A stretch of DNA of 15,640 nt from Deltaproteobacteria bacterium. Its GTDB lineage: Bacteria; DRYD01. The stretch covers positions 1 to 15,640 of the forward strand of contig JAPYWL010000031.1 in the NCBI GenBank assembly GCA_028276365.1. Reading direction: 5' to 3'. The notes under the pieces are model-generated. The model made no database searches. It was not told where the DNA came from and saw only the letters and a program-made list of their open reading frames with translations. Both the position numbers and the translations under genes were made by a program. Of this stretch, positions 4,560 through 15,640 are shown in pieces (the stretch's first letter is position 1; every line of letters starts with the position of its first letter).

Positions 4560-5906
4560 TTAATTTTGATTTTTAAACTTAGCATAAAATCTTCTTCTTA
4601 CCACAAAGTAAAAAACAACTAAAATAAATACAAATGGTAAAGCTAAATAAATAAGATACATTATAATTAAGTGTTCTCTTTTTATAACAACGGGTAAAGG
4701 AGGTACATCTGTAGGTCTTAAACTCTTAGCAATAGGTTGATTTAACATATAATCAATAATATTCATAACAAAACTTTTGTTATCATAAGCACTTATCAAA
4801 GAATTAGATAAAATATTAGAATCTCCAAGTACTAATAACATACCTTTTTTATCTTTAAAACTTTTTTCAGACATCATACAAACCGTATATTCTTGTATAT
4901 CTTTAGTTATTTTTAAAACTCCGCTTTTTAATTGTTCAATATCAGCTGAAACTGACTTAGTAGTTAAAACCTCAGATAAAGAAGTACCTTCAATAGTAGA
5001 GGTATCTTTTAACTGATTTCGCTGGATAATTAATGGTGCAATCATAGCTAAATTAGTATTATATAAATTAGATAAATAAGGTAAATTAACTGGGAAAACT
5101 ACAACATAAAGTGGATTATTAGTAAATACACTAATAGCTACTTTATCAGTAACACTAATCCCATAAGAATTAATTAATTTATTTAAATTAGAAAACTTAG
5201 AAGGTAGATATTCTCTAAAAGATAAAGCAATTATTAATCTACCACCATTATATAAATAATCATTAATCTTTTTTAACTCGAAATCACTAATATCTATTTT
5301 AGGAGATACAATAATAGATAATAAATTTTCATTAACATATAAGTTTTCAGAAGCTAAGTTAATTACTTTAACATTAAAACCTTCCTCAGTTAAACTCTGT
5401 TTTAAAACATTTAACCCCTCAGGATTTGTATTATCTAAGCTATATTCTCCATGACCAGTAATGAACGCAATACTACCTTTCTTCTGATTAACTAGATTAA
5501 AAACTATGTTATAAAATTTATCCTGATCTATAACAGAATTTTCATATTTTTTTCTTTCTTTATACATAAATAGCACCTGATTATTAGAAGAAAATCCATA
5601 TAAATTAACTTTAGCAAAATCAATCCTAGGATCTATATATTCATATTTTATTTTCTTTGAATACCTACTGAGCTTAGTAAAGAAATCTATTATATCATTA
5701 TATTCTTTACTTCCTTTATCATATAGAATCTTAATATATACTGGTGAATCTAAGGAATTAAGAAAACTAATTAACTCAGTAGATATAGAATATTTTTTTT
5801 CTTTAGTTAAATCAAAAACAATAGGGTTTTTATCCAATAAAAAAATAGAAATAAATCCAATTAGTAAAATAGAAATTATTTCTATGATTCTACTATATTT
5901 ATACAT
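4560..5906 (-). CDS. GldG-type ABC transporter auxiliary membrane protein (ABC_transp_aux family)
   Basis: This is a 448-residue membrane-anchored protein with one transmembrane helix near the N-terminus (about residues 8-24) and one near the C-terminus (about 412-436), followed by a basic tail (RRRFYAKFK). The extracytoplasmic region carries family landmarks: FDLTKEKKYSIS at 31-42 and ITGHGEYS at 149-156. GldG proteins normally work with a GldF-type permease and an ABC ATPase, for example in gliding-motility or related export complexes. Neither partner is present here, so the role is unknown. ATG at 5904-5906 is preceded by AGGTGA (5913-5918) six bases away. The 52-base gap after rpoC holds no hairpin, so cotranscription with rpoB-rpoC is likely. 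Confidence 0.82.
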   Translation of the reverse strand: MYKYSRIIEIISILLIGFISIFLLDKNPIVFDLTKEKKYSISTELISFLNSLDSPVYIKILYDKGSKEYNDIIDFFTKLSRYSKKIKYEYIDPRIDFAKVNLYGFSSNNQVLFMYKERKKYENSVIDQDKFYNIVFNLVNQKKGSIAFITGHGEYSLDNTNPEGLNVLKQSLTEEGFNVKVINLASENLYVNENLLSIIVSPKIDISDFELKKINDYLYNGGRLIIALSFREYLPSKFSNLNKLINSYGISVTDKVAISVFTNNPLYVVVFPVNLPYLSNLYNTNLAMIAPLIIQRNQLKDTSTIEGTSLSEVLTTKSVSADIEQLKSGVLKITKDIQEYTVCMMSEKSFKDKKGMLLVLGDSNILSNSLISAYDNKSFVMNIIDYMLNQPIAKSLRPTDVPPLPVVIKREHLIIMYLIYLALPFVFILVVFYFVVRRRFYAKFKNQN

Positions 5907-5958
5907 ATAAAATCACCTGCTTGTTTTTATTTTAGTTTTTATTTTAATTTTCTAATTT

Positions 5959-8900
5959 TTAATTGATAGATAAAGCTTCTGTAATTTCTTGTGTTTCTTC
6001 TTCTATTATGACATCTTTATAATCTTCAAAATTAGTACCTACTGGTATTAATTTTCCTATTATTATATTTTCTTTTAATCCTATTAAATGATCTTTTTTA
6101 CCAGCAATTGCGGCATAAGAAAGTACTCTTGTAGTTTCTTGGAATGATGCAGCAGATAACCAAGATTCTGATTCTAATGCAGCTTTACTTATTCCCAATA
6201 TTTCAGGTATATATTTTACTAATTTTTTTCCATCTTTTGCTAACTCTGAATTTATATAATTAACTATATTTCTATCTACTAATTGACCATACATTAAAGA
6301 ACTATCTCCTGGATCTTCTACATAAACAAACCTAAACATTTGTCTTACTATTACTTCCATATGCTTATCCACAATAAATACTCCTTGACTTAAGTAAACT
6401 TTTTGCATTTCATCTATTATATACTTTTGGATCTTTTCTATAGCTTTATCTATTAACTTTTGCTTTAATTCTTCCTCTAAGTTCATATTTACTATATTTT
6501 CTAGTAATATTTTAAATGGCAAAGTACCATGAGTTAATGTACTACCTATTTCTAATTTTTGACCAACTTTTACTATTATTTTCCTATTAGATGGTATAGT
6601 ATATGTATATACTTTATTTGTTAATAAACCTTTTATTTTTAGTATTTTTTCGTTTGTTAAAGGATTTATTGAAATTTCTTGTATAATTGAATCTTCTAAA
6701 ACATAATAATCACAAGCATTTTTAGGTTTTCTCCTTACTTCGAGTAATTCTTGAACTCTTGGAATACCTTGGATAATATCAGCTTCTAGAGCTACCCCTC
6801 CTGTATGGAATGTTCTTAAAGTTAATTGAGTACCTGGTTCCCCTATACTTTGTGCAGCAATTATACCAACAGCTTCTCCTAAATCTATTAAAACATTTCC
6901 TCTAGCCATATCTTCACCATAACATTTTCTACATACTCCCTTAAATACTTTACATTTTAATACACTTCTTATATTTACTTCATAATAATACTTAGCTATA
7001 ACTTTCGCTTTATCTCTTGTAATTAAATCACCTTTAGATACAATTAATTCACCAGTTTCAGGATTAATATAATCACTTGCAGCTACTCTCCCTCTTATTC
7101 TATTTACCAAAGGCAACACTTCTTCTTCATTAAATACTTTTATTACTTTTATCCCTCTATTTAGTAACTCTTTTATTTTAAAATAATCAATTACATCATA
7201 TTTCTTAATATTTACTTCTGGATAATCAATAGCAACATATTTACCAAGTGAGTTTTGAGTTTCTATTTCTTCTATATATGAATCATCAAAATTAACATTT
7301 TTAATAGCTTTTACAGTTATGTAATCTTGAGTTTTACAATCTTCTTCCCTTACAATTACATCTTGAGAAACATCTACTAATTTTCTAGTTAAATATCCTG
7401 CATCAGCAGTTCTTAAAGCTGTATCAACTAATCCTTTTCTACTTCCATGACTACCTACAAAATAATCAAAAATACCTAATCCCTCAGTAAAAGATTTTTT
7501 AATAGGTAGAGGTATAACTTCTCCTTTAGGATTAACCATTAATCCTCTAATAGCTACTAATTGTTTTGCTTGATCTATATTACCTCTAGCTCCTGAATTA
7601 GCTAACATCCATATACTATTTAAAGGATAATTTTTTGAATAGTAATCTTTAAATAATTGTGTAACATTATCAGTAACTTCATACCATAAATCTATTTTCT
7701 TTTTATAATATTCTTCATTTGATAATAAGCCTAATTCATAAGCTTTTTCAAGAATAAATTGTTTCTTTTCTGCTTCGTTTATAATCTGATATTTTCCTTC
7801 AGGAACTATTAACTCACCTATAGATATAGTTGTAGCAGATTTAGTAGCAAAATAAAATCCTATATCTTTTAATTCATCTAAAACCGGATGAACTCTCGAC
7901 ATTCCATACTTATATATACATTCTTCTACTATCCATTTTAATTCTTTTTTACCTACTGTAAAATTAATAAATGGAAAATCAGGTAAATATTTTCTTATAG
8001 CATTACTAAAGATAATTCTTCCTATAGTTGTTTCTATTTTAGATTCTTTGAAATCTTCGATTTTATCGATTCCATTTGCTACTTTATCAAAATTAACTTT
8101 AAAATAAACCCATGTACTTAATGGATATTTTAATTCATCATATAATCTGATAGCTTCTTCATAAGAAGAAACATAAATCGAAATTTTTTGAGGTTTATCA
8201 AAAGTAAAAGTAAGCCAATATGCTCCTAAAACCATATCTTGAGAAGGTGCATTAGCAGGCTCTCCATTAGCAGGTATTAACATATTATGTATTGATAACA
8301 TAAGATTCCTATATTCTAATTGTGCTTCAACAGAAAGAGGAATATGAACTGCCATTTGATCTCCATCAAAATCAGCGTTATATGGGCCACAAACTAGTGG
8401 ATGTACTTGTATTGATTTACCATCAACTAATACTGGATAAAATGCCTGAATACTCAATCTATGTAATGTAGGTGCTCTATTTAAAATCACAGGAAAATTA
8501 GATATAACATTTTGAACTACATCCCATATTTCTGGCTTCTTTAATTCAATCATTCTTTTAGCTTTCCTTATATTATCTGTTTTCCCTTTTTCTATCAATT
8601 TTTGGAATATAAATGGCTTGAATAATTCCAATGCCATATCTATTGGTAATCCACATTGATACATCTTTAACTTAGGATTAACTACTATAACACTTCTACC
8701 AGAAAAATCAACCCGTTTCCCAAGTAAATTATATCTAAATCTTCCTTGCTTACCTTGAATACTATCAGATAAAGATTTTAATACCCTTCTATTGGAAACC
8801 ACAATAGGCTTTTTAGTACGTGAATTATCTATTAAAGCATCTACAGCTTTTTGTAACATCCTCTTTTCATTATTTATTATTATTAATGGAGATTGTAATT

Positions 8901-10878
8901 CTATTAATCTCTTTAATCTTAAATTCCTATTTATAATTCTTCTATATAAATCATTTAAATCAGAGGAAGCAAATTTACCACCCTCTAACTGAACAATAGG
9001 ACGAATTTCAGCTGGCAAAACTGGTAAAACCTCTAATACCATCCATTCAGGTTTTACCTTACTCTTTAAAAACATCTTTATTATACTTATTCTTTTTAAG
9101 TATTTCCTTAAATTTTTAGTATCTTTTTCCTTTAATTTTTCCAAAGTTTCTAATTCTTTTTGTAAATCCATTTTTGATAATAATTCCTTTATAGGTAATG
9201 CACCTGCTTCTAATCTGAATACTACCATTATATTATCTGCTATTACCCTTGCTACCTTAGATAATTTAATCACAAATCCTTTAAATCTATCATCAAAATA
9301 TAAATCCAACAATTTATTCTCTAATTCTTTTAAAGAAGATAATAATTCTAATCTAGTTTCTTTATCTTTTTCGGATTTTATAGTCAAATTTTTATAATCT
9401 TCAGCAAGTTTCCAATATGTATTATAAGATTGTATATATTCATTTACCCATTTAGATATATCAGTTTTTTCACTAGATTGCTTTAATTCAAAGATAACTT
9501 TTCTAAAAACTTCAAAAATTTCAAATATATTATGTAACTCCATTAAATTACTTTTAAATTGAATTAACTCTTTATCTATATTTTGGATATCTCTTGAAAT
9601 TAAATTATCTTCTTCTATTTCATTAGTATAATCTCTTAGTTTTTGAATTATATTTTCTAGTTCCTTTAATAATTTTTGTATATCTTTTATATTATATTTA
9701 ACCTTAGAACTAACTAAATAATTATAAATATTAGAATTAAAATCCTCAGAAATAGCCCTAAAATTTGATAACAAATTAATAATATTCTCATTTTCCTTTT
9801 TGATTTTCTTATCTAAATTTTTTTCTTTTAATGAAGATAGTTTTAAATTAATATCATAAGTAATAGTCCTTTCTATTTTTTCATCTAAAATATTAAACTT
9901 AGTTAATAAATTTTCTAATTTATGCTTAGTTACATTAACTATATTTTGGATTTCATTATCAGGATTTATTAATAAATTTATAATAACTATTTTCTCTTTT
10001 TCATACTTTTCAGCTTCAATTAAAATTTCTTTATCATCATTTTTATATATAGACTTTATCTCTAAAGAAGTGAGTAATTTTTGAATTTCAATATATTTTC
10101 TATCTATTGCTTCTATTTCTTCAAATATTTTTATAAATCTGTTTAATTTTATTTTTCCTCTCTTTAATTCAGCATACAATCTTTTACTTATATTAGGATA
10201 ATCTTCATCTATAATTACTTTATATAATTTATCAAATTTTTTAACATCAAATTGAAAAACTAATAATTCTCTTAAGAATTGATCTGCTTTTTTTATTAAA
10301 CTTATTACTTTATTTAGAAACTCACTTTCTTTTTCATCTTTTATTTCATTTATTATTTTTTTATATTCTTCTTCTAATAAATTAATTAACTCATCTTTTT
10401 TATTTATATATTTCTTTTTTAAAATGAAATACAATATATTCCTATTATTTTTATTTAAATCGGTAACAATATAAGATTCAAAATAAACAACATCTTTCAA
10501 TTGCTTATCTTCTAAATCTAATAAAATAGATAAAATTCCGGGGCTACCTTGTAAGAACCAGAAATGTACTACAGGAGCAGCTAACTCAATATGCCCCATT
10601 CTTTCTCTTCTTACCTTAGATTTAGTTACCTCTACTCCACATCTATCACAAATAACACCTTTTGCTTTTATCTTTCTTTTCTTATACTTTCCACAAGCAC
10701 ATTCATAATCTTTCTCAGGACCGAATATTCTCTCACAAAATAAACCATCTCTTTCTGGTTTTAATGTTTTATAGTTCTTAGTTTCTGGTTTTTTAACTTC
10801 TCCGTAAGACAATTCTCTAATTCTTTCAGGAGAAGCTAAAGAAATTTTTATTGATTTTATATTATTAAAAGTAAGCAC
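5959..10878 (-). CDS. rpoC: DNA-directed RNA polymerase beta-prime subunit with large N-terminal insertion
   Basis: This catalytic subunit of RNA polymerase is 1639 residues, against about 1200 in Firmicutes. The N-terminal zinc-binding domain has Cys60, Cys62, Cys77 and Cys80, followed by HFWFLQGSPGILSILLDLE. About 370 extra residues, between about 141 and 550, are rich in Lys, Glu, Ile and Asn and look largely helical. The normal core resumes at VVFRLEAGALPIKELL, then PEWMVLEVLPVLPAEIRP (from residue 610). The magnesium-binding site NADFDGDQM is intact with Asp836, Asp838 and Asp840. The trigger-loop region and second zinc site (REEDC, LKCKVFKGVCRKCYG) are present, as are RQMFRFVYVEDPGDSSL and SWLSAASFQETTRVL near the end. 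The start is GTG at 10876-10878, with AAGGGGG (10886-10892) seven bases upstream, inside the 21-base gap after rpoB. The extra N-terminal block sits where Thermus and Thermotoga also have insertions, but looks different in composition. Confidence 0.99.
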   Translation of the reverse strand: MLTFNNIKSIKISLASPERIRELSYGEVKKPETKNYKTLKPERDGLFCERIFGPEKDYECACGKYKKRKIKAKGVICDRCGVEVTKSKVRRERMGHIELAAPVVHFWFLQGSPGILSILLDLEDKQLKDVVYFESYIVTDLNKNNRNILYFILKKKYINKKDELINLLEEEYKKIINEIKDEKESEFLNKVISLIKKADQFLRELLVFQFDVKKFDKLYKVIIDEDYPNISKRLYAELKRGKIKLNRFIKIFEEIEAIDRKYIEIQKLLTSLEIKSIYKNDDKEILIEAEKYEKEKIVIINLLINPDNEIQNIVNVTKHKLENLLTKFNILDEKIERTITYDINLKLSSLKEKNLDKKIKKENENIINLLSNFRAISEDFNSNIYNYLVSSKVKYNIKDIQKLLKELENIIQKLRDYTNEIEEDNLISRDIQNIDKELIQFKSNLMELHNIFEIFEVFRKVIFELKQSSEKTDISKWVNEYIQSYNTYWKLAEDYKNLTIKSEKDKETRLELLSSLKELENKLLDLYFDDRFKGFVIKLSKVARVIADNIMVVFRLEAGALPIKELLSKMDLQKELETLEKLKEKDTKNLRKYLKRISIIKMFLKSKVKPEWMVLEVLPVLPAEIRPIVQLEGGKFASSDLNDLYRRIINRNLRLKRLIELQSPLIIINNEKRMLQKAVDALIDNSRTKKPIVVSNRRVLKSLSDSIQGKQGRFRYNLLGKRVDFSGRSVIVVNPKLKMYQCGLPIDMALELFKPFIFQKLIEKGKTDNIRKAKRMIELKKPEIWDVVQNVISNFPVILNRAPTLHRLSIQAFYPVLVDGKSIQVHPLVCGPYNADFDGDQMAVHIPLSVEAQLEYRNLMLSIHNMLIPANGEPANAPSQDMVLGAYWLTFTFDKPQKISIYVSSYEEAIRLYDELKYPLSTWVYFKVNFDKVANGIDKIEDFKESKIETTIGRIIFSNAIRKYLPDFPFINFTVGKKELKWIVEECIYKYGMSRVHPVLDELKDIGFYFATKSATTISIGELIVPEGKYQIINEAEKKQFILEKAYELGLLSNEEYYKKKIDLWYEVTDNVTQLFKDYYSKNYPLNSIWMLANSGARGNIDQAKQLVAIRGLMVNPKGEVIPLPIKKSFTEGLGIFDYFVGSHGSRKGLVDTALRTADAGYLTRKLVDVSQDVIVREEDCKTQDYITVKAIKNVNFDDSYIEEIETQNSLGKYVAIDYPEVNIKKYDVIDYFKIKELLNRGIKVIKVFNEEEVLPLVNRIRGRVAASDYINPETGELIVSKGDLITRDKAKVIAKYYYEVNIRSVLKCKVFKGVCRKCYGEDMARGNVLIDLGEAVGIIAAQSIGEPGTQLTLRTFHTGGVALEADIIQGIPRVQELLEVRRKPKNACDYYVLEDSIIQEISINPLTNEKILKIKGLLTNKVYTYTIPSNRKIIVKVGQKLEIGSTLTHGTLPFKILLENIVNMNLEEELKQKLIDKAIEKIQKYIIDEMQKVYLSQGVFIVDKHMEVIVRQMFRFVYVEDPGDSSLMYGQLVDRNIVNYINSELAKDGKKLVKYIPEILGISKAALESESWLSAASFQETTRVLSYAAIAGKKDHLIGLKENIIIGKLIPVGTNFEDYKDVIIEEETQEITEALSIN

Positions 10879-10899
10879 AAATATTCCCCCTTCCTTAAT

Positions 10900-13800
10900 T
10901 TAGATTAAACTACCTTCTTCTTCTACTTCAAAATCTTCAAAACTCTTAGGAACAATAGCTTGATTCTTATTAGTAATAATTTCTATATCTAAACCTAAAG
11001 CCTGTAATTCTTTCACTAAAACTTTAAAGCTTTCAGGAATTCCTCTAAATACTACAGGTTTACCTCTAACAATAGCTTCAAAAGTTTTATTCCTACCCAC
11101 TACATCATCAGATTTAATAGTAAGCATTTCTTGTAAAGAATAGGAAGCACCATAAGCCTCTAAAGCCCAAACTTCCATTTCTCCCAATCTCTGACCACCA
11201 TATTGTGCTCTTCCACCTAACGGTTGCTGCGTAATTAAAGAATAAGGACCACTTGATCTAGCATGTATCTTATCTTCTACCATATGAATTAACTTCATCA
11301 TATATACATACCCTACTGTTATAGGTCTGTCAAATGGTTCTCCAGTTTTACCATCATATAATATAAATTTTCCATTTATTAAATTCTCTATTATTTTGTC
11401 ATATAAAATATCAATTTCTTCTCCTGTAAAATCTCTAACAGTAAATAATTTAGCTAAATCTTTGTATTCTAATTTTTCTAGTTTTTCTTTTGATATATCT
11501 TTTGATAATCTATTTATTATTTCTTCTTTAGTTATCTTATTTTCATTAATAAGAATATCTAAAAGATGCTTAACAGTATAACCACTATCTCTCATTAAAA
11601 ATAATAATAAGTCATATTTAGTATATTTATAAAAATTGTCATTAAATTTATTTTTATATTTATAATCAAGTGCTTCTTTAATTAAATTTTTAATTTCACC
11701 TAAAGATAAATTAGAAAATGGTAAAACTTTAATCCTAATACCTAAAATTTTACAAACTAATCCTAAATGAGCTTCAAATATTTGACCAACATTCATTCTT
11801 GAAGGGACCCCTAAGGGATTAAGTATAACTTGAATAGGAGTACCATCAGCCATGAACGGCATATCTTCAATAGGAACAATAATAGAAATAACTCCCTTAT
11901 TCCCATGTCTTAAAGCTACTTTATCACCAACTTTTATATTTCTATTTTGAGCAATATGAATTAAAACTCTTTCTAAATAATTCGCATTATTACTTACTAT
12001 TTTATTATCATCGGCTTTAAAATCAAATACCTTAATAACAGTACCATAAACTCCAGGAGAAGCCTTTAAGGAAGTATCTCGAGCATTTTTAGCACTTCTA
12101 CCAAATATAGCTTGTAATAACTTTTCTTCAGCAGTTAATTCTAATTCACTTTGAGGAGTAATCTTACCTACCAAAATATCACCAGGCTTTACATAAGCAC
12201 CAACAGAAATTATCCCATGTTCATCTAAATATTTAATAGCTTCATCAGAAACTGTACCAATTTCTCTAGTAATTTCTTCAGGACCTTGTTTAGTATGAAC
12301 AGCTACTACTTCTTCCTCAGCTATATGAATACTTCTATAATAATCTTCTCTAATAAGCTCTTCACTAATAATAACTGCATCCTCAAAATTATAACCTTCC
12401 CAAGGCATATAAGCTACTAAAACATTTCTACCTAAAGCTAATTCATCTTCATTAATAGAAAAACCAGAGGCAATAATATCACCAGCTTTAACTTCATCAT
12501 TTAGATTAACTAATGGTTTTTGATTAATAATAGTAGCACTATTTGTATTAACAAATTTTAATAAATCATAACTATCATATATTCCTTTAACTTTATTAAC
12601 TTCGATAACAATTCTCTTAGAATCTACATAAACAACTTTACCAGAATTTTTAGCTATGATACAATATCCACTCTGCTTAGCTACTTCCTTCTCTAATCCT
12701 GTAAAAATAAGCGGTTTTTCAGGATTTAATAAAGGTACCGATTGCCTTTGCATATTAGTTCCCATTAATGCTCTATTAACATCATCATTTTCTATAAAAG
12801 GTATTAAAGAAGCAGAAACAGAAAATATCTGAATAGGACTAATTTCTATGTAATCTATTTCACTAAAGTTAATATTTATAAATGTTCCTTTATATCTAAC
12901 ATCAACTTTAGGTTCTAAAATTTTACCAGTTTTATTATCAAATTTAACATCAGCAGGTGCTATTTTGTAATTTTCTTCTTCCAAAGCATCTAAATAATAA
13001 ATTTTACTAAAATCAATTTGCCCATTATTAACTTTATAATAAGGAGCAACTAAGAATCCAAAAGGATAATTAATAGTAGCATAAGTAGTTAAAGAAGTTA
13101 TAAGTCCTATATTTTGTCCTTCTGGAGTTTCTACAGGACAAATCCTACTATAATGACTAGTATGAATATCTCTTATATCAAATCCTGCTTGCTCTCTTTG
13201 AATACCACCTATACCTAAAGTAGATAATCTTCTTTTATGTGTTAATTCAGATAAAGGATTAGTTTGATCTAAAAATTGAGATAGAGAATTTTGAGCAAAA
13301 AATATTTTTAGCATTCCACTAACAGGCCTTGGATTTATTACATCAGATATCTTTATATTTTCTTCATTAACTTGAGTTAAATTATCTTTAGTTAATCTAA
13401 CAAACTTAACCATCCCAGCCTTTATAGTATTATATAAATGCTCCCCTACAGGCCTTACTCTCCTATTAGATAAACTATTTATATCATCTTCCGGTCTTTT
13501 ACCTTCTAAAAATTCAAAATGAGACCTAATTATACTAACTATCTCATTATAGATAAATCCTTTTAAATTAATATTATATCCACAATGAGGGCATATTAAA
13601 TAATTATTTTCATACTCACATTCATTTAATTTGAAATAATTTTGACATGAAATACATTTAACAATAACTTTATCTCTTAGATCATTTTCACAAGAACTAC
13701 AATTAAAATTAATTTTATTATCACTAACAGAAATATTTTTATATAAATTAATAGTTTGACATTTATTACATTTAACAGAATTAATTAAAACCGAACTATA

Positions 13801-15132
13801 ATGTAATCTTGTATTACATTTAACACATTCTATATTACCGCTTTTATTTATGGTACCACAATTATAGCAGCAAATATCATATCCCATTTTTTGATTAACT
13901 TTATACCTACCTGCAATAGATAATTCATATTTATCTTTACTAAAATAAGGGAAAACTTGTTCCTGAACAACCTCAAGAGGTATATTAGAAATATTTTCTC
14001 CACTTATCCTTCTATGAAGTAATCTAATAGCTTTTTCTTGTTCATCAGAACCGAAAATCTTATTCCTTCTTATATCCCTATCTATAGTATTAACTATTAA
14101 TTGAATAATATGATATATAAACCTATATTTATCATAGAAATACTCATTAAAATCATCAAAACTCGAGAACTCTTTTTTCAATTTATCAGGGAGATTTTTA
14201 TAAATATACTCAACTAAATTTTCATTAATAAACTTTTCAACTTGATTATTTTCTAATAATATTTCTTCAGCTTGTTCTATAAATTTTTTATCAAACTTAA
14301 TTTTGAAATCCCTAGCTAAATAATTAAATATAAGTTCTTCTAAGATATCATAATTAGAAAACCCTAAAGCCTTTAAAAGAGCAACAATAGTAAATTTGAT
14401 TTTTTTATCCATTCTAACACGAATAAAATTAGTTGGCTTTATTTTTTCAATTTCTCTTTCATGATAATGTATTTCAATTAAATCAGTTTCTATATCTAAG
14501 ATATTTCCTTTTGCAGGAATAATAGTAGTTTTATAATTAGTTAATTTCTCAATTTTTTCTTTAAAGTGATAAACTCCTGGAGACCTTATTAATTGATTAA
14601 CAAAAACCCTTTCAGTACCATTAACAATAAAAGTACCTCTATCTGTCATTTCAGGTAGCTCAAAAAACAAAACTTCATCTTCTATCGTTTTTATAGGTTC
14701 TATTTCTTTTTTTAGTGTTCCTGAACACTCAGGGCATTCTAAAATTTTAGTATCTTTTAGTTCATAATAAACTTTCCTACATTTAGTACAAACAAATTTA
14801 GATTTACCCACTGTTAATGATAAAGTAATATAAACAGGAACTTGATAAGTTAATTGTTCATATTTACATTTTTGGAGATTTTTTTCATTAACTTCTCCTA
14901 TTCTATAACCTTTATAATTTATAACATATTTATCAGTTTCAATAGGGAAAAATTCTCTAAATATAGAATCCAAGCCCTCTTTTTTGAACCACTCAAATGA
15001 ATTTTTAGATACATTAAGTAATTCTGGTAAATCAGGTAATTTATAATTTTTCCATCTTCCTAATGCCAGAATTTTTCCATTTGATTTAGCCTTTTCTAAA
15101 TCCTGTAATAAATTACTATTACTTAAGTTCAT
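10900..15132 (-). CDS. rpoB: DNA-directed RNA polymerase beta subunit with inserted zinc ribbons
   Basis: This 1410-residue subunit is longer than the roughly 1180-1240 typical of Firmicutes. N-terminal landmarks are LTYQVPVYITL and MTDRGTFIVNGTERVFVNQL. A zinc-ribbon motif at Cys115, Cys118, Cys133 and Cys136 interrupts the short hairpin between them. Three further CxxC pairs-of-pairs follow the AGRYKVNQKMGYD segment: Cys422/425-436/439, Cys455/458-478/481 and Cys493/496-514/517. Core sequence resumes at NEIVSIIRSHFEFLEG. The rifampicin pocket (SLSQFLDQTNPLSELTHKRR, His632) matches sensitive wild type. RHGNKGVIS, LGVPSRMNVGQI, FGGQR-type QYGGQRLGEMEVWALEAYG and SDDVVGRNKT are all present. 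A segment of about 115 residues near 1138-1254 is longer than in Bacillus but of a length seen elsewhere. ATG at 15130-15132 follows AGGAGG by 12 bases. Ribosomal protein genes rplJ and rplL do not precede it. Confidence 0.99.
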   Translation of the reverse strand: MNLSNSNLLQDLEKAKSNGKILALGRWKNYKLPDLPELLNVSKNSFEWFKKEGLDSIFREFFPIETDKYVINYKGYRIGEVNEKNLQKCKYEQLTYQVPVYITLSLTVGKSKFVCTKCRKVYYELKDTKILECPECSGTLKKEIEPIKTIEDEVLFFELPEMTDRGTFIVNGTERVFVNQLIRSPGVYHFKEKIEKLTNYKTTIIPAKGNILDIETDLIEIHYHEREIEKIKPTNFIRVRMDKKIKFTIVALLKALGFSNYDILEELIFNYLARDFKIKFDKKFIEQAEEILLENNQVEKFINENLVEYIYKNLPDKLKKEFSSFDDFNEYFYDKYRFIYHIIQLIVNTIDRDIRRNKIFGSDEQEKAIRLLHRRISGENISNIPLEVVQEQVFPYFSKDKYELSIAGRYKVNQKMGYDICCYNCGTINKSGNIECVKCNTRLHYSSVLINSVKCNKCQTINLYKNISVSDNKINFNCSSCENDLRDKVIVKCISCQNYFKLNECEYENNYLICPHCGYNINLKGFIYNEIVSIIRSHFEFLEGKRPEDDINSLSNRRVRPVGEHLYNTIKAGMVKFVRLTKDNLTQVNEENIKISDVINPRPVSGMLKIFFAQNSLSQFLDQTNPLSELTHKRRLSTLGIGGIQREQAGFDIRDIHTSHYSRICPVETPEGQNIGLITSLTTYATINYPFGFLVAPYYKVNNGQIDFSKIYYLDALEEENYKIAPADVKFDNKTGKILEPKVDVRYKGTFININFSEIDYIEISPIQIFSVSASLIPFIENDDVNRALMGTNMQRQSVPLLNPEKPLIFTGLEKEVAKQSGYCIIAKNSGKVVYVDSKRIVIEVNKVKGIYDSYDLLKFVNTNSATIINQKPLVNLNDEVKAGDIIASGFSINEDELALGRNVLVAYMPWEGYNFEDAVIISEELIREDYYRSIHIAEEEVVAVHTKQGPEEITREIGTVSDEAIKYLDEHGIISVGAYVKPGDILVGKITPQSELELTAEEKLLQAIFGRSAKNARDTSLKASPGVYGTVIKVFDFKADDNKIVSNNANYLERVLIHIAQNRNIKVGDKVALRHGNKGVISIIVPIEDMPFMADGTPIQVILNPLGVPSRMNVGQIFEAHLGLVCKILGIRIKVLPFSNLSLGEIKNLIKEALDYKYKNKFNDNFYKYTKYDLLLFLMRDSGYTVKHLLDILINENKITKEEIINRLSKDISKEKLEKLEYKDLAKLFTVRDFTGEEIDILYDKIIENLINGKFILYDGKTGEPFDRPITVGYVYMMKLIHMVEDKIHARSSGPYSLITQQPLGGRAQYGGQRLGEMEVWALEAYGASYSLQEMLTIKSDDVVGRNKTFEAIVRGKPVVFRGIPESFKVLVKELQALGLDIEIITNKNQAIVPKSFEDFEVEEEGSLI

Positions 15133-15375
15133 ATTTTATTTTTACCTCCTTCTTATAAAAATATCTTTTTTATTCCTCATAAATTAGATTTAAATAAATA
15201 AAATAAAATAATACTAGATAAATAAATTCTTTTGTTTTAATTCTGAAAAAAATTTAATTTTGAAAAAAAATGCCTTAAGAAACATAAGTTTTTAATGACT
15301 CTAATTATAGAATTCTATCCCAAAAAAAAATATCCTTTTTTATTTTAATTTAATTGAAAATGAAAAAATAGAGAT
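15133..15375. other. Leader and intergenic region upstream of rpoB
   Basis: This 243-base AT-rich gap separates the dehydrogenase gene from rpoB on the same strand. It contains the rpoB Shine-Dalgarno AGGAGG (15145-15150) and, on the minus strand, a perfect TATAAT (15304-15309) without a recognisable -35. If used, that -10 would give a leader of about 165 bases. No GC-rich hairpin with a T-run is visible after the dehydrogenase stop, so readthrough into rpoB is possible. No ribosomal protein binding structure is recognised. Confidence 0.45.
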
Positions 15376-15640
15376 TTAAGTTAGAAACTCTCCACCATCA
15401 ACATAAATAGTATTACCAGTAATCCAGTAAGTTAATTCAGTAGATAAAGCTAAAATAGCATTAGCAACATCTTCAGGAGTAGTTAATCTTTTAAAAGGAT
15501 TATATTTTAACGCCTTTTCAATCATATCTTGAGAAGATGGTATTTTTCTTAAGGCAGGTGTATCTGTAACCCCTGCACATATAGCATTAGCGGTAATATA
15601 GTAAGGTGCTAATTCTAAAGCTAATTGACGTATATGAGCT
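15376..15640 (-). CDS. Short-chain dehydrogenase/reductase, possible enoyl-ACP reductase, 5' end outside window
   Basis: Only the C-terminal 88 residues are visible. ELAPYYITANAICAGVTDTP matches the segment after the catalytic YxxxK helix of short-chain dehydrogenases (usually ELAPYGIRVNAIAPG). FKRLTTPEDVANAILAL and WITGNTIYVDGGEFLT match the C-terminal end of the family. The ALRKIP segment and VTDTPAL resemble FabL/FabI-like enoyl-ACP reductases, which perform the last step of fatty-acid elongation, but a FabG-like ketoreductase cannot be excluded without the N-terminal half and active-site tyrosine. The stop is TAA at 15376-15378. The protein contains no membrane or cofactor-binding segment in the visible part; the Rossmann GxxxGxG motif would lie outside the window. 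Confidence 0.85.
   Translation of the reverse strand, partial: AHIRQLALELAPYYITANAICAGVTDTPALRKIPSSQDMIEKALKYNPFKRLTTPEDVANAILALSTELTYWITGNTIYVDGGEFLT

Follow-up and report, generated by a model that had tools for sequence, protein, structure and literature searches.

A lineage-specific insert of putative tandem zinc ribbons in the beta2 lobe of RNA polymerase from Candidatus Calescibacteriota

The RNA polymerase beta subunit (RpoB) encoded on contig JAPYWL010000031.1 (assembly GCA_028276365.1) carries a lineage-specific insert of about 105 residues. This contig of 15,640 nucleotides was analysed at its full length and is called the window here. The insert separates two flanks that normally lie nearly adjacent in bacterial beta subunits. 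It is best read as three putative zinc-ribbon units in the beta lobe, because the pairing of its cysteines is conserved and two of the units share the same modelled topology. A sequence-only reading of the window had proposed that this cysteine-rich block is a novel accessory surface of the polymerase. Our data place the block at a known insertion site and suggest that its zinc-ribbon content at that site is new as far as our searches reach.

Results

The rpoB gene (10900..15132, minus strand) encodes a protein of 1410 amino acids with the Pfam Rpb2 domains. Over its full length the protein matches the NCBIfam models PRK00405 (1296.8 bits; curated cut-off 896) and TIGR02013 (1229.9 bits; curated cut-off 801). 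The window is one whole contig of a 1.59-Mb metagenome-assembled genome (MAG) that consists of 124 contigs and is 87% complete. Because its closest named database match is Candidatus (Ca.) Calescibacterium sp. SKYB25, the window is assigned by sequence similarity to Ca. Calescibacteriota (EM19/Calescamantes). Hot springs are a known habitat of this group (PMC4791363).

When aligned with relatives and with about 100 beta segments from the survey, the insert is delimited to residues 421-528 (13549..13872, minus strand), between the GRYK segment and the helix preceding the DDIxxLxNRR motif. Its cysteine-bearing part, residues 421-524, corresponds exactly to 13561-13872 of the minus strand, as the sequence-only reading had stated. 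Fourteen cysteines lie in this part (421, 422, 425, 436, 439, 455, 458, 478, 481, 493, 496, 505, 514 and 517). Twelve of them form six CxxC pairs in three CxxC...CxxC units; the two pairs of a unit are separated by 10, 19 and 17 residues in units 1, 2 and 3, respectively, in agreement with the earlier description. The units, all on the minus strand, are unit 1 (C422/C425...C436/C439; 13816..13869), unit 2 (C455/C458...C478/C481; 13690..13770) and unit 3 (C493/C496...C514/C517; 13582..13656). A chance origin of this pattern is excluded, because the rest of the window beta, about 1300 residues, has just 8 cysteines. Four of these 8 belong to a separate ribbon at residues 115-136, which brings the total in this beta subunit to four ribbons.

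We compared the insert in a family of six genomes (G000-G005) comprising two genera, the window's genus (G000 and G001) and a sister genus, g2, with the other four. G006 is a genome from another family of the same order, and G007 lies outside the group. The insert is common to all six family genomes. Every cysteine of units 1 and 2 is invariant among them, as are other residues of these units, such as K430, G432, N462, N483, L485, D487 and K488. The 12 paired cysteines are all present in the independent genome of the window's genus, which is 77% identical across the region. C421 and C505, which had been set aside as extra, are not conserved in that genome, unlike the paired cysteines. Unit 3 is intact in G000 and G001 and degenerate in the sister genus. 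The strict pairing of 12 cysteines claimed earlier therefore applies to the window's genus, and family-wide to units 1 and 2; it breaks down at unit 3 of the sister genus. Because two of the four sister-genus genomes still have a single cysteine in the first knuckle of unit 3, the degenerate unit is read as a decaying older site, and probably not as the gain of a new one. At the same beta site G006 has a single ribbon, where the family profile gives a match that spans the left flank and unit 1 (E 2.2e-13). By sequence, the module appears to have changed in size within the order, by expansion or contraction, because G006 has one ribbon and the window's family has three units.

The insert is under purifying selection and evolves faster than the beta core. 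The ratio of nonsynonymous to synonymous substitution rates (dN/dS) in the insert ranges from 0.08 to 0.56 across all pairs. It is 0.39 in the G000/G001 pair and 0.08-0.17 inside the sister genus. The corresponding values for RpoB residues 530-1400 are 0.04-0.09.

The origin of the ribbons was considered in several ways. Units 2 and 3 have an identical predicted strand order despite non-significant similarity beyond the cysteines. Tandem duplication was unsupported, as unit-versus-unit scores did not clearly exceed those of cysteine-preserving shuffles (p 0.06-0.69). A search of the order for free-standing homologues of the module gave nothing beyond one chance-level match (E 0.23). A viral origin was rejected, as the insert has no relative among the viral contigs searched.

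The insert was modelled alone with AlphaFold2 as residues 410-548, with six sequences as input; an earlier model of residues 1-620, also with six sequences, had a mean predicted local distance difference test score (pLDDT) of 45 and was unusable. The mean pLDDT of the shorter model is 61, and units 2 and 3 reach block means of 73-86 and 75-87, respectively. Each of these two units is modelled as strand, CxxC, strand, strand, strand, CxxC, strand. Pfam DZR (PF12773) shares its CxxCG...CxxC spacing with unit 1 and matches it weakly (E 0.0061, 17.1 bits), below the gathering cut-off of 27.3. No Rpb9- or TFIIS-type Pfam model is listed for the window RpoB up to E 1. Among the Foldseek matches to the insert model, A12.2 chains of RNA polymerase I stand at ranks 1, 3, 4 and 8, with E values of 0.06-0.3 and large root-mean-square deviations. 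A12.2 and Rpb9 of eukaryotic RNA polymerases place zinc ribbons at the lobe/jaw, as the window insert would. They differ from it in being separate subunits without significant sequence or fold match to the insert, and the insert shows no acidic hairpin of the kind that marks cleavage-type ribbons. The modelled resemblance to A12.2 is thus a lead only. A12.2 itself, a protein with two zinc ribbons, has been proposed to control movement of the jaw and lobe (PMC6435322).

We inspected the insertion site itself in about 100 beta segments of other bacteria. Most of them have a distance of 41-46 residues between the GR(Y)K and DDIDH motifs, against 141 in the window, which bears out the earlier statement that the flanks are almost adjacent in ordinary beta subunits. 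Several surveyed beta subunits have large inserts at the same site, with motif distances of 105 (L023), 128 (L061 and L077), 144 (L062), 161 (L078), 172 (L113) and about 180 residues (L057 and L073). None of these eight inserts contains zinc-ribbon cysteines, and those of L057, L061, L073, L077 and L078 have 0-1 cysteine each. The window insert is not assigned to the Bacilli/Clostridia-type insert domain, as it visibly shares no motif with the latter five. By eye, the L062 insert resembles a carboxypeptidase-regulatory or Ig-like (immunoglobulin-like) repeat (VEGEIRNIEGNPVQNAQVSI...TNAEGYYEFETLPQGDYAITV) and is a probable Ig/CNA-like domain.

The position of the insert is known from other polymerases. 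In Escherichia coli, beta2 comprises residues 151-224 and 344-445, and E. coli and Taq have loops of different length between the last two beta2 helices (PMC2939025). The window insert ends immediately before the residue aligned to E. coli 423. Newing et al. (2020) described the betaIn5 insertion in the beta2 lobe of the Bacillus subtilis enzyme and regarded the lobe as a hot spot of lineage-specific insertions, most of which have an enigmatic function (PMC7749167). The window insert likewise lies between the GR(Y/M)K and DDIDHLGNRR segments of the beta2 lobe, in the lobe as the sequence-only reading had supposed, and is confined to one lineage. In B. subtilis beta (PDB 6WVJ) the corresponding flanks are at 259-280 and 371-414, leaving about 90 extra residues between them. 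The betaIn5 region thus occupies the same place, from the GRYK segment to the helix before DDIDHLGNRR, and is also lineage-restricted; its length is given as about 180 residues in PMC7749167 and measured here as a gap of about 90, so the boundaries may differ. The betaIn5-type inserts seen in our survey differ from the window insert in that they lack zinc-ribbon cysteines and do not match it in sequence.

A family profile search at E 1e-8, with G006 as the positive control, covered 386 genomes of many families and 293 genomes around another centre, the two sets partly overlapping. Matches were confined to the order, with none elsewhere in the 386 and 293 genomes. Solved beta subunits gave no match to the ribbons. 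The literature searched, whose coverage does not extend to the original Lane and Darst insert survey, has no description of zinc ribbons at this beta site. The claim of a novel arrangement is therefore split. On alignment, the insertion site is not new, being the known beta2-lobe hot spot of the betaIn5 region. The zinc-ribbon content at that site appears new as far as searched and was found in this order only.

Other cysteine-rich beta segments were seen in the survey. The beta N-terminus of L008, L018, L021, L023, L024 and L058 has a CxC...CxxC segment, which is cysteine-rich and probably zinc-binding, like the window insert. It differs in lying at the N-terminus, before KY..EC..LTY, and in its cysteine pattern. 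A CxxC-x14-CxxC ribbon also occurs far downstream, at about residues 901-922, in the beta open reading frame of L042, an unclassified bacterium.

The same polymerase has an altered pocket for the core recognition element (CRE). In E. coli beta, D446 and W183 are key for CRE recognition; D446 bonds +2G and W183 unstacks +1T (PMC5101437). D446A impairs initial transcription in E. coli (PMC5902446), and eukaryotic polymerases also have Asp at the D446 position (PMC6435322). In the window the W183 position is held by Ile211 (14500..14502, minus strand) and the D446 position by Asn552 (13477..13479, minus strand), which sits 24 residues past the end of the insert. Ile and Asn occupy these positions in all six family members, whereas the other surveyed sequences have Trp in 30 of 30 and Asp in 97 of 97. 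G006, with its one ribbon, retains Asp at the D446 position.

Neither Gre Pfam domain (GreA/GreB) was found in six Calescibacteriota genomes (G000-G004 and G006). The control search gave matches in nine other genomes and in G007, which is outside the group. These MAGs are 71-90% complete. It is improbable that six independent losses through missing contigs account for the absence, because the product of the missing fractions is about 2e-5; since the MAGs are incomplete, we speak of an apparent absence. Gre-less bacteria exist, and cyanobacteria make up for Gre by intrinsic cleavage (PMC7026648). A DksA-type zinc finger was not found in the same six genomes and is patchy in the control set too. 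Taken by sequence, the CRE changes and the Gre absence suggest a reworked polymerase. The co-occurrence of the insert, the CRE change and the missing Gre, striking as it is, amounts to an association within a single lineage and has no statistical value as evidence of causation.

The separate ribbon in the N-terminal beta1 (protrusion) part of the window beta, C115/C118...C133/C136 (14725..14790, minus strand), was absent from the sequence-only reading. Alignment with G001-G005 restricts it to the window's genus (g1). Residues 117-119 of E. coli beta, which are needed for Mfd binding, lie just after the equivalent position. Mfd, including its RNA polymerase interaction domain (RID), is present in both genera of the family, and a co-evolved Mfd change was rejected, as the presence of the RID in both gave no clear link to this ribbon. 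No extra zinc sites were seen in beta', which has the canonical CxxC motifs only.

A GldG-like gene lies after rpoB-rpoC in the window (4560-15639), and by eye its counterpart does so in the sister genus. No ribosomal protein genes precede rpoB-rpoC in the window. Upstream there is a short-chain dehydrogenase/reductase gene in the window versus a uvrA-like gene in the sister genus. These observations, too, were made by eye. The G006 locus (contig L032, 1-9937) encodes an RpoC of 2216 residues with many insertions and an RpoB with about 145 extra residues after the ribbon region. An in-frame TGA at 61-63, near the start of this contig, is probably a sequence error.

Discussion

We favour the interpretation that the window beta has a lineage-specific beta2-lobe insert of tandem zinc ribbons that would serve as an integral contact surface, and we regard this as probable overall. 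The two parts of this interpretation differ in strength. By sequence and model, the structural identity of the insert as tandem zinc ribbons on the lobe is very probable. The lobe-contact function, which is argued by analogy, is tentative and has an even chance at the most.

Several observations weigh against the interpretation. Of the three zinc-ribbon folds expected by the sequence-only reading, the predicted structure gives units 2 and 3 a repeated strand-knuckle-strand topology, while unit 1 is poorly modelled; its block-mean pLDDT is 36-51, and unit 1 with the flanks stays at about 50 or below. The best Foldseek match to the insert model is non-significant (E 0.064). VIA-align gave one unrelated chain at Z 2.0, and A12.2 is not among its rows. 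The closest pair of different species in the genus is 69% identical in the insert and 83-91% in the rest of beta. Because the insert is less conserved than the remaining beta, it may be tolerated rather than critical. Loss of the unit 3 cysteines in the sister genus shows the third putative zinc site to be dispensable in the family.

The insert could instead be a neutral or stability filler, that is, compact zinc knuckles in a hot-spot loop that tolerates them, kept mainly for folding at high temperature and with no specific partner. This explanation has to be taken seriously, as in other bacteria the site accommodates many unrelated inserts, among them the probable Ig/CNA-like domain of L062, and we consider it quite possible, though short of probable. 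The lower identity of the insert, the loss of unit 3 zinc ligands in the sister genus and the enigmatic function of most such inserts (PMC7749167) are all consistent with it. However, dN/dS is well below 1 in every pair, both genera have all eight cysteines of units 1 and 2 unchanged, together with several further residues of these units, and the order has the same type of module in different sizes. An artefact of assembly or gene prediction has a negligible probability. The source MAG is fragmented, but the reading frame is unbroken and five further genomes, which come from several isolates and projects with separate names, carry homologous inserts; assembly artefact was ruled out, as the insert is common to six genomes.

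It has also to be considered whether the module substitutes for lost transcript-cleavage factors, as a built-in A12.2/TFIIS-like ribbon that would aid RNA cleavage or prevent backtracking without Gre. The lack of Gre in six genomes with positive controls, the high rank of A12.2 chains among the weak Foldseek matches and the intrinsic activity by which Gre-less cyanobacterial polymerases compensate (PMC7026648) point in this direction. However, compensation in cyanobacteria involves no zinc ribbons, the MAGs are not complete, and no Rpb9/TFIIS-type model matches up to the E value searched. The units have no visible conserved acidic Asp-Glu hairpin tip, and the insert is on the lobe and not on the secondary-channel side. 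We therefore consider a substitution for Gre very unlikely. A broader version is that a Gre-less lineage rebuilt its lobe side, with the CRE pocket losing both key nucleotide-contact residues and the tandem ribbons, inserted beside that pocket, forming an integral A12.2/Rpb9-like module through which cleft closure, pausing or backtracking would be controlled. This version is speculative and, in our view, unlikely.

If the insert is an integral contact surface, the following mechanism can be proposed. The insert occupies the loop before the last beta2-lobe helix, the spot that bears unrelated inserts in Bacilli-like and other bacteria. The ribbons would bind zinc and fold into small rigid knuckles projecting from the lobe beside the downstream cleft. 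Most plausibly they would provide an integral surface that touches another protein, an adjacent region of the enzyme or DNA. Such a surface could tune closure of the lobe and cleft, comparable to the role proposed for A12.2 beside the lobe/jaw of RNA polymerase I. Reworked pausing, start-site choice and rescue would be in keeping with the altered CRE pocket and the apparent lack of Gre in the same genomes, but this agreement does not imply a causal tie to the insert. The accessory surface role proposed by the sequence-only reading is retained here as an inference.

Our study indicates that the order has one predicted metal-dependent module in several states, with one ribbon, with two active and one dead, or with three active. 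Beta2-lobe inserts are common and their functions are largely obscure, and these natural variants allow direct comparison. The CRE residues are otherwise nearly universal, so this enzyme offers a test of whether a polymerase can do without sequence readout at +1/+2. The same enzyme may also be a test case for how a polymerase copes without Gre factors.

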